Assembly: GCF_032714615.1 (NCBI RefSeq)
Contig: NZ_JAWDKA010000001.1
Location: 62,001 to 126,000, forward strand
DNA from: Methanorbis furvi
GTDB lineage: Archaea; Halobacteriota; Methanomicrobia; Methanomicrobiales; Methanocorpusculaceae
Direction: 5' to 3'
DNA: 64,000 nucleotides
Of the stretch, positions 40,222-43,883 are shown one piece after another (position 1 is the first letter of the stretch; every line of letters begins with the position of its first letter). The notes under the pieces were generated by a model that ran no database searches, was not told the origin of the DNA, and saw nothing but the letters and a program-made list of their open reading frames with translations. Position numbers and translations under genes: made by a program.

Positions 40222-40439
40222 CGCGAATAAAAAAATAATCTATGAATATCTAAACGAAAAATTCTGCCAAAAAAAAAAAATAAATAATTTTGATAATTTA
40301 TTAAAAACCGCCATTGGTGATTTTTTTTATTCGCGCTATTCCGCGAAGCGGTAAGCAGGCCGAAACGACTCCCGAAGGGGGAGTTTAACACGACGGAACG
40401 TCGTGTGGAAGGCATGCGATTCGCGCTATTCGCGTTTCA
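40208..40439. repeat. Type B inverted repeat element, copy 4, reaching into two genes
   Basis: The ends TGAAACGCGAATAGCGCGAA and ATTCGCGCTATTCGCGTTTC enter the 3' ends of the flanking convergent genes and provide the last codons and stops of both (LKRE-stop in each). Inside are a weak hairpin with CCGCCATTGGTGATT and the GC-rich module (GCGAAGCGGTAAGCAGGCCG ... GGAAGGCATGCGA). Confidence 0.88.
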
Positions 40440-41373
40440 GAGATTCTAATCTGGCCCCGACACTCAGATAATGTCCGTTCACCAGCTCAAACCCTGGCAT
40501 CTCCTTCTTTCCTTCCGGTTTCGCCGACAGAATACACAAAGCCCCGTCTCCGGTCATCACCACCGGCCCTTTTCGTTTCAGAACGTCCACCACCTGTCCG
40601 GGCTCCCCTGCATGCTCCCCGAAAACCCGCTCGCTCCGGTAGACCAGCAGCCGCTTTCCGTCAGGAAGCCTCGTGTTCGCACACGGCGCCGGCGACAGCC
40701 CGCGAATCCGGTTATGAATCATCCTCGCAGGCATCGACCAGTCAATCACACACTCCTCCTTTGTGATCGACGGAGCAAACGTCGCCTTCGCATGATCCTG
40801 CGGCGTTGCGCAAACATCTCCGGATGAAACTCTCTCCAGCGCTTCAACGAGCGCCTTGGCCCCGAGAGCTGCGAGCCGGTCATGCAGCTCCCCAAACGTC
40901 TCATCGCCCCCTACTGCAAGCGACTTTGAGAGAATCACGTCCCCTGCATCCAGGTCCTTTGTGATGTACATGATCGACACTCCCGCCTCCTCATCCCCAT
41001 TCAGCACCGAGTACTGCATCGGCGCTGCTCCGCGGTAGCGGGGCAGCAGAGAGCCATGAATATTGATGATCTTCTGCGGCGGCAGATTGATGATCTCATC
41101 AGGAATCATCATGCCAAACGCCACCACCACGCCGATATCAGCATGCAGCGCCGCAAGATCCGCGAACAACTGCGGATCCCTCATCGACTCAGGCTGAAAG
41201 ATCGGAATATCATGCGCAAGCGCATACTCCTTCACCGGCGAAAAAACAATCTTGTTCCCGCGTCGGTTCGGTTTGTCCACCCTTGTCACCACACCGACGA
41301 TCTCATGCTCAGCCGCGACCGCCTCAAGAGCCGGAACCGCATACGCAGGCGTCCCCATAAACAGAACTCTCAT
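40426..41373 (-). CDS. fmt: Methionyl-tRNA formyltransferase (bacterial type)
   Basis: A 315-residue protein equal in length and layout to bacterial Fmt. The N-terminal formyltransferase domain starts MRVLFMGTPAYAVPAL. The catalytic triad is Asn104 and His106 in IINIHGSLLPRYRGAAP and Asp142 in KDLDAGD; the SLLP loop is intact. The C-terminal OB-like tRNA-binding domain is present (IDWSMPARMIHNRIRGLSP). The gene overlaps def by four bases. Archaea normally start translation with unformylated methionine, so this pair is unexpected and probably acquired from bacteria. The formyl donor in a methanogen, and whether the initiator tRNA is really the substrate, are open. Confidence 0.88.
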   Translation of the reverse strand: MRVLFMGTPAYAVPALEAVAAEHEIVGVVTRVDKPNRRGNKIVFSPVKEYALAHDIPIFQPESMRDPQLFADLAALHADIGVVVAFGMMIPDEIINLPPQKIINIHGSLLPRYRGAAPMQYSVLNGDEEAGVSIMYITKDLDAGDVILSKSLAVGGDETFGELHDRLAALGAKALVEALERVSSGDVCATPQDHAKATFAPSITKEECVIDWSMPARMIHNRIRGLSPAPCANTRLPDGKRLLVYRSERVFGEHAGEPGQVVDVLKRKGPVVMTGDGALCILSAKPEGKKEMPGFELVNGHYLSVGARLESLKRE

Positions 41374-41861
41374 TCGGCCTTCTCCCCAGCAAGCCGCTCC
41401 AGATCGCGGGCTACCATCTTGCGTGCGATCGGTGTCAGCCGGTCGACGAACAGAACCCCGTCCAGATGATCATACTCATGCTGAAACACCCGTGCCGGAA
41501 AGTCCTTCAGCTCCTCTTCGATCGTCTCTCCGGTCTCGTTCTGATACCGCACCAAAATCCGCTTCGGTCTCCGGACTTTTTTGTGAACGCCCGGTATCGA
41601 GAGACATCCCTCCTCCATCTCAGATGTGGAGTTGCCGGCTGAAAGGATCTCGGGATTGATCACTTTGCGGAGTTTGTCGCCTGCATCCATCACAAAAAAA
41701 CGCTGAGGGACACCTATCTGCGGCGCGGCAAGCCCGACGCCGCGGCTGTTCCGCATGAAAGGCACCATCTCCTCGAGCTGTTGCACCAGTTCCGGCGTTA
41801 TTGCATCGACCGGCGTGCATCCGGCGGACAGGACCGTTTCTCCGTATATATAGACCCGCAT
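41370..41861 (-). CDS. def: Peptide deformylase
   Basis: A 163-residue peptide deformylase with all three active-site motifs: GVGLAAPQ (41-48), EGCLS (84-88, metal ligand C86) and HEYDH (128-132, metal ligands H128 and H132 and the catalytic glutamate). It removes formyl groups from the N-terminal methionine of new proteins. The start at 41861 (MRVYIYG) is chosen by family length; an ATG at 41891 is possible. It is directly coupled to fmt, the usual bacterial order, which supports joint function and joint transfer. Peptide deformylase is not part of the normal archaeal gene set. Confidence 0.9.
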   Translation of the reverse strand: MRVYIYGETVLSAGCTPVDAITPELVQQLEEMVPFMRNSRGVGLAAPQIGVPQRFFVMDAGDKLRKVINPEILSAGNSTSEMEEGCLSIPGVHKKVRRPKRILVRYQNETGETIEEELKDFPARVFQHEYDHLDGVLFVDRLTPIARKMVARDLERLAGEKAE

Positions 41862-42038: not shown

Positions 42039-42197
42039 ATCTCAAACATAATAGTACAACAACAACCAAAAATATACAATTATCATCTCAGAGAGCGCTA
42101 TATATAGGTCCGGGTTCTGACCCGTTGAACTCCCGCCAGCATAATCGAAGCGGAACCATTCCCTCACCTCCACTCACCCACTCCCAAGGTGATATTC

Positions 42198-43883
42198 ATG
42201 CCAAGTAGCGAACAAATCCACCCCAAAAATGCAGGTTCGGACTTCGGCAATCTTGCCGATTTCCTGACCCCGTTCGAACACAGTCAAAACGCCGTCTCTC
42301 CTTCCGAGGAGTCTCCGGTGTTTCCCGCTGTGTTCTATCTTCATGAAAAGATCACTGATTCAGTGAAGCAGGTGCATCTTGCACTCGCGCGGTTCAATGC
42401 CTCAGGCCATGGGCCTACGGTATTCCGACAGGACGGACATCTCGTCCGTGTTGTTCAAAACGAGGACGGCAGCTACGCTGTTGTCCCGCTGGACCGCAAC
42501 CGGCTTCGCCTGATCCTCTCGGAAGCCGGCACATGGAAACGCTTTTTGAAGGACGTCATCGTCGAGCCGCACAATGCCCTGCTGGATGCGGCGATCGCCG
42601 CTCCTTCGGAGCGGTATCGGCTGATTCCGGTGCTTGCCGGTCTGCACTCCGGCGTCCTCCTCAGAGCTGACGGAACGATTGCATGCACGGCAGGGTTTGA
42701 TGCGGCATCAGGATTTTTTCTGACAGCAACGCACACGCTTCCGCCAGTGCCCGAGCATCCGAGTGAATCGGATGTCGGTTTCGTCCGCGAGATGCTTGCC
42801 GATATTTTCGGCGAGTTTTTGTTTGCCGGTCCTGCGGACGCAGCGAACGCGGTTGCGGCATTGATGACTGCCGTTCTTCGTCCGACCATGCAGGGCCCGG
42901 TTCCTATCTGGGCGATCGACAAGAACACGCCGCGTGCCGGCGGAAGTCTTCTTGCCCTTGCGGTGGGCGCTCTTGCGTACGGCGAGGTTCCGATCGTGCA
43001 TGCGACGAGCCGTCGCCGCGATGAGATGGAGAAGATTGTGCGGATGACGGTCCGCGAGAATCTCGGATACGTTGTTCTGGACAATGTGGTTGCCGGAACC
43101 GACTGGACGCCTGAAGTTCTGCTTTCGGCGACTTCGGGATCCGGACGGGTGATGTCCCGGAACATGGGAACCTACTCTTCGTTTACCGGAAAAACTCCGG
43201 CGTTTTTTGTGGTGAACGGGGTGCATCTGAACATCCGGGCTGACGTGACCGGCAGAATGTTTCTGGTGCGGCTCGCTGCACCAAAGGCCTGGCAGGAGAT
43301 TCGTTTCTCCCGCACAAAGACCGAGCTGCTGGAACTTGCGTCCGCGATGCACCCGCAGGCGGTCTGGGGCGTTGCGGTGCTGCTCCGGTTTTGGCAACAG
43401 GCAGGCGAGCCTGCATTCAGGCTCGTGTCCGGGAATCTGTCGGAGTTTCCCGAGTGGCTGCGTGTGGTGGGCGGCGCTCTTGCGCACGCCGGCTGGTCTG
43501 CGGTTCTGGCCAATCAGGGCGAGATGCAGAGCGAGGAGAACGAGGCGGATGTTGAAGGGGCTGAGTTGGTGGCGGCGCTGTATGCGGTGTTTGGCGAGAG
43601 AGCATTTTCAGCGAAGGCGCTGCTGAAGATTCTGGTTGCGGAAGGTGCCGCCCGAAAGAGCGGGACCGGGCATGAGGGTCTGCTGAATTATGCGGATGAG
43701 GCGATGATCCGGTCCGCGGTTTCTGGCACGCTCTCTTCGGTGAAGGTGGGAATGTGGCTGAAAGAGTATGTGGGGACACGGTTTGCAGGAGCAGAGTGGT
43801 ATGTGGAGAGATCTGATGTTAGAATCGAAAACGTTCGACAGTATCATCTCGTTCCGGTGGAGAGTCAAACTGTCCTCTGCTAA
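42198..43883 (+). CDS. Plasmid/phage-type helicase-like ATPase with degenerate P-loop
   Basis: A 561-residue protein that follows the layout of large plasmid and phage primase-helicase ATPases: a beta-rich N-terminal part with VLLRADGTIACTAGFDAASGFFL, RPTMQG before the ATPase domain, Walker B-like YVVLDNV (about 291-297), an arginine region SGRVMSRNMG, and VNGVHLNIRADVTGRMFLVRL. In the place of the Walker A motif it reads TPRAGGSLLA, where relatives have a GTGKS-type sequence; the lysine is missing. ATP hydrolysis is therefore doubtful. It starts at ATG 42198 after GGTGAT. No integrase or replication gene is beside it, so it looks like a remnant of an integrated element or a domesticated gene. 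Confidence 0.68.
   Translation: MPSSEQIHPKNAGSDFGNLADFLTPFEHSQNAVSPSEESPVFPAVFYLHEKITDSVKQVHLALARFNASGHGPTVFRQDGHLVRVVQNEDGSYAVVPLDRNRLRLILSEAGTWKRFLKDVIVEPHNALLDAAIAAPSERYRLIPVLAGLHSGVLLRADGTIACTAGFDAASGFFLTATHTLPPVPEHPSESDVGFVREMLADIFGEFLFAGPADAANAVAALMTAVLRPTMQGPVPIWAIDKNTPRAGGSLLALAVGALAYGEVPIVHATSRRRDEMEKIVRMTVRENLGYVVLDNVVAGTDWTPEVLLSATSGSGRVMSRNMGTYSSFTGKTPAFFVVNGVHLNIRADVTGRMFLVRLAAPKAWQEIRFSRTKTELLELASAMHPQAVWGVAVLLRFWQQAGEPAFRLVSGNLSEFPEWLRVVGGALAHAGWSAVLANQGEMQSEENEADVEGAELVAALYAVFGERAFSAKALLKILVAEGAARKSGTGHEGLLNYADEAMIRSAVSGTLSSVKVGMWLKEYVGTRFAGAEWYVERSDVRIENVRQYHLVPVESQTVLC

Follow-up and report, generated by a model that had tools for sequence, protein, structure and literature searches.

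A bacterial-type formyltransferase and deformylase pair conserved in the archaeal genus Methanocorpusculum, and a putative N-formylmethionine cycle on an archaeal initiator tRNA

All 14 Methanocorpusculum genomes analysed carry a bacterial-type methionyl-tRNA formyltransferase gene (fmt) next to a peptide deformylase gene (def), and we consider it likely that this genus has horizontally acquired and retained a bacterial N-formylmethionine cycle, in which Fmt would act on the archaeal Met-tRNAi, the deformylase (DefA) would remove the formyl group and formate-tetrahydrofolate ligase (FTHFS) would supply the donor. According to reviews, archaea are without FMT and generally without canonical PDF (PMC13234167, PMC9976931), and archaeal initiation is not formylated (PMC9976931). 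The pair had been noticed in a sequence-only reading of the window, the whole stretch of 64,000 nucleotides analysed; beyond that reading, we describe here a second putative deformylase (DefB), an exchange of FolD for FTHFS, the conservation of the pair throughout the genus and an initiator tRNA that is unchanged.

Both genes lie on the minus strand, with def (positions 41370..41861, 163 aa, start codon ATG at 41861) preceding fmt (40426..41373, 315 aa). The Fmt protein is full length, contains both the Formyl_trans_N (PF00551) and Formyl_trans_C (PF02911) domains and in profile searches scored 289.6 bits against TIGR00460, the curated equivalog cut-off being 201.5, while DefA (PF01327) scored 146.2 bits against TIGR00079 (cut-off 103.95) and has all three metal-site motifs intact (GVGLAAPQ, containing GLAAPQ; EGCLS; and HEYDH). 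In a full-length alignment with the E. coli enzyme (1FMT), N104, H106 and D142 fall on the catalytic Asn, His and Asp, and R38 corresponds to Arg42, which is conserved in the tRNA-binding insertion loop. These active-site residues and the loop arginine are invariant across 15/15 aligned archaeal Fmts; two further proteins beyond those aligned (L111 and L112) have HGSILP or HGSVLP instead of HGSLLP, with the Asn and the His retained. The two genes overlap by four bases, ATGA, from which we infer that they share one transcript. Thus the complete bacterial-type pair, the overlap and the catalytic triad described in the sequence-only reading were all borne out. On the other side of def, a plus-strand ORF of 564 aa (42189-43883) adjoins the pair and has no match in Pfam or NCBIfam.

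The distribution of the pair was analysed in a class sample of 149 genomes and a phylum sample of 393 genomes. In the genus Methanocorpusculum, which includes M. petauri and M. parvum and one member of which is called Methanorbis by NCBI, fmt scored above the cut-off and had def immediately upstream in 14/14 genomes, two of them assembled as a single contig (G038 and G049). In most of the genus loci read the two genes overlap by four bases, and in the rest they lie 1 base apart. In Candidatus Methanorbis basalitermitum (L115) def is present with GLASPQ as motif I, a variant missed by the automatic pattern. Neither fmt nor the def pair was found in the sister genus (0/8 genomes of the class sample), and the only other complete pair in that sample belongs to Methanomicrobium mobile BP (G105), where def ends 18 bases upstream of fmt. 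In the phylum sample no genome outside the genus exceeded the fmt cut-off, the weaker matches from Halobacteriota staying below it.

These results bear directly on the possibility that the pair is assembly contamination or a transferred island in decay, which might be suspected when bacterial-type genes appear in a draft archaeal assembly of 26 contigs. Contamination is ruled out by the occurrence of the pair in every genus genome sampled, including the single-contig assemblies and the named isolates M. petauri and M. parvum; absence from other assemblies, which the sequence-only reading had named as the sign of contamination, is excluded. As for decay, the reading frames are intact, and pairwise dN/dS values of 0.04-0.14 for fmt, defA and defB indicate that all three genes are under purifying selection, which together with the invariant active sites agrees with the earlier view that the pair is in use. 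We therefore regard contamination or decay as a wholly improbable explanation.

The ancestry of Fmt is bacterial. In a careful tree, whose bacterial rows comprised Bacillota, Pseudomonadota, Mycoplasma and only one Fusobacterium, the archaeal Fmts form a single clade (bootstrap 100, SH-aLRT 99) that joins Fusobacterium (100/98) amid the Bacillota and Pseudomonadota rows, so that the comparison with bacterial sequences proposed by the earlier reading places the archaeal clade nested among bacterial Fmts. Searches of the plasmid collection likewise gave Fusobacterium as the best match to Fmt (45.8%), DefA (49.4%) and DefB (41.6%); it is a likely neighbour, and with bacterial sampling limited this does not name the donor. 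The position of the M. mobile protein is less firm: in a quick tree it and the Methanocorpusculum rows branched from one open fork, and in the careful tree its placement as their sister had support of only 82/37, which does not fix the direction of transfer between these two archaeal lineages. In the scenario that we favour, the genus would have gained the bacterial fmt-def pair through horizontal transfer and then kept it.

Is the archaeal initiator tRNA adapted to such an enzyme? Among the Fmt determinants, a mismatch at 1:72 is the major one and the others are minor (PMC9976931, PMC13234167). The sequence-only reading had proposed looking for a C1:A72-like mismatch, which is not there: the chromosomal initiator tRNA (AGCGAGG...CCTCGCTA) has A1:U72 instead, a weak pair and no mismatch, while the remaining listed determinants are present (G2:C71, C3:G70, G4:C69 and A73). 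The acceptor stem is identical in fmt-carrying and fmt-less genomes, implying that there has been no bacterial-style co-adaptation of the initiator tRNA, and aIF2 gamma is kept in all genomes tested, implying that initiation can proceed without need for the formyl group. The elongator tRNA-Met that was read has G1:C72, so Fmt might discriminate the initiator by its weak A1:U72 pair as against G1:C72, together with G2:C71, C3:G70, G4:C69 and A73. E. coli Fmt is able to formylate eukaryotic A1:U72 initiators in vitro.

Extra initiator-like tRNA-Met genes with U1:A72 were observed in two proviruses, one in the source genome (L138 903-977, G000:C13) and one in G038 (L140 6515-6589, G038:C1). An archaeal integrase, overlapping a tRNA-Phe gene, is present in the provirus of the source genome, and a HerA/terminase-like ATPase in both. 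A third extra initiator-like tRNA-Met, on a viral contig (L181), keeps the usual A1:U72. We considered whether the U1:A72 tRNA of the source genome might serve the module as a dedicated second initiator and rejected this, since it sits in a provirus and, among the other sampled genomes, only G038 has a comparable one.

The identity of the formyl donor had been raised as a question, given the use of tetrahydromethanopterin by methanogens, and a search for 10-formyl-tetrahydrofolate enzymes had been suggested. The source genome encodes PurN, which implies the presence of 10-formyl-THF, and it also encodes FTHFS (PF01268; L137 4639-6318, G000:C11), matched over its full length (894.7 bits, positions 2-556 of 556). 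With PurN and a full FTHFS in the same genome, 10-formyl-THF can be made from formate and the donor need not be tetrahydromethanopterin. FTHFS was found in 13/14 genus genomes versus 0/16 relatives, while FolD showed the reverse pattern (0/14 genus genomes versus 16/16 relatives tested); in a wider sample of the genus, FTHFS was present in all 12 genomes with a completeness of 90% or more, and every genome without it was less complete than that. The best match to the genus FTHFS in the plasmid collection, from Monoglobus, shares about 63% identity with it, which suggests that FTHFS may be a further bacterial acquisition, alongside the loss of FolD. M. mobile carries fmt together with FolD, without FTHFS, and because all genus genomes share one ancestor, the co-occurrence of fmt and FTHFS rests on few events. 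In the proposed cycle, FTHFS would convert formate to 10-formyl-THF, standing in the genus where relatives have FolD.

A second deformylase-like gene, defB, is located in the source genome just ahead of the start of the window (G000:C1:61145-61600), and was found in 14/14 genus genomes, in M. mobile and in G110, with a partial copy in G138. G110 belongs to the genus of M. mobile, and neither fmt nor DefA was found in this 89%-complete genome of 130 contigs, in which an absence is insecure. All 13 DefB sequences read have the motifs GLSAPQ, EGSPC and HE-x-DH; EGSPC is without the metal-ligand Cys position of EGCLS, the Cys having moved two positions. The protein scores 97.8 bits against TIGR00079, below the cut-off of 103.95, and its predicted fold, obtained with plasmid-derived rows left out of the input, is that of a deformylase (pLDDT 95.7), the top PDB matches all being PDF. 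In the tree DefB forms a long-stemmed clade with DefA as its nearest neighbour, and it may be a duplicated and altered deformylase; a viral origin was rejected after a scan of viral contigs gave no relative. Type 3 PDFs, whose activity is reduced or absent, are found in Archaea (PMC12690207), and DefB resembles them in having motifs I and II substituted (GLSAPQ and EGSPC) with HEKDH intact. Unlike them, it retains the PDF fold and is under strong purifying selection, and in complete genomes it always occurs alongside a canonical DefA plus Fmt.

What, then, is the substrate of the pair? We infer formylation of Met-tRNAi, with the archaeal initiation machinery accepting the resulting fMet-tRNAi at all times or only in some conditions. 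With 10-formyl-tetrahydrofolate as the donor, Fmt would formylate the archaeal initiator Met-tRNA, and DefA would remove the formyl group again from nascent chains, clearing the way for N-terminal processing. Alternatively, Fmt and DefA could serve a formyl-transfer and deformylation cycle of their own that does not involve the initiator tRNA, its substrate being for instance a peptide or a different amine, a reading that fits an initiator lacking the C1:A72 mismatch and unchanged with respect to fmt-less relatives, as well as the activity on sugars of related ArnA-type formyltransferases, of which the Halobacteriota relatives have examples below the fmt cut-off. We think this unlikely, since the protein scores far higher as Fmt than as ArnA (only 150 bits, cut-off 777), which led us to reject an ArnA-type sugar formyltransferase, and since it retains the C-terminal tRNA-binding domain and the loop arginine, and the genes have the standard bacterial order. 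Moreover a deformylase partner would be superfluous for a gene formylating only a small molecule, which also counts in favour of Met-tRNAi.

It is also conceivable, if quite improbable in our estimation, that the initiator tRNA is formylated only under certain conditions, as a signal of stress or formate status and not for bulk translation. The full retention of aIF2 gamma and of the archaeal initiator would suit such a role, as would the production of the donor straight from formate, which is also a methanogenic substrate (PMC3035222), and conditional cytosolic formylation in yeast offers a parallel (PMC13234167); the universal retention of the genes and the strong purifying selection on them fit constitutive use equally well. 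Whether the genus starts its proteins with fMet on the unmodified archaeal initiator, with the formyl group coming from formate via FTHFS and initiation thereby tied to the formate supply, is a specific proposal that we hold to be evenly balanced between true and false.

Compared with known systems, the archaeal pair is like the bacterial def-fmt operon (EC 2.1.2.9 and EC 3.5.1.88) in its full-length enzymes, its catalytic motifs, the position of def directly upstream and scores above the equivalog cut-offs, and differs in its archaeal host, the A1:U72 initiator and aIF2. In the bacterial records compared, def-fmt is flanked by rsmB, rlmN or priA, none of which was recognised among the few neighbouring ORFs scanned beside the archaeal pair. 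A precedent comes from eukaryotes, where mitochondrial Fmt retained in the cytosol produces fMet-tRNAi that starts translation (PMC13234167). As with yeast cytosolic Fmt1, a bacterial-type Fmt here stands beside e/aIF2-type initiation and a non-bacterial initiator tRNA; unlike it, the archaeal Fmt is genomically fixed in a prokaryote, has a deformylase partner and would draw on a formate-driven donor route. The M. labreanum genome paper does not mention deformylase or formyl, and the Methanocorpusculum species paper mentions neither; the comparison paper on Methanomicrobiales leaves deformylase unmentioned and uses formyl for formylmethanofuran or its dehydrogenase, plus one passage on AICAR transformylase. 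In the open-access PMC literature we found no published discussion joining deformylase and Methanocorpusculum, an earlier mention elsewhere being possible.

With these genes, a culturable archaeal genus breaks the genomic side of the domain-level rule that archaea have no FMT and generally no canonical PDF. Two questions thereby become testable: whether fMet-tRNAi can sustain aIF2-based initiation, and which features an A1:U72 initiator requires for formylation. A further prediction is that these methanogens would be sensitive to deformylase inhibitors such as actinonin.
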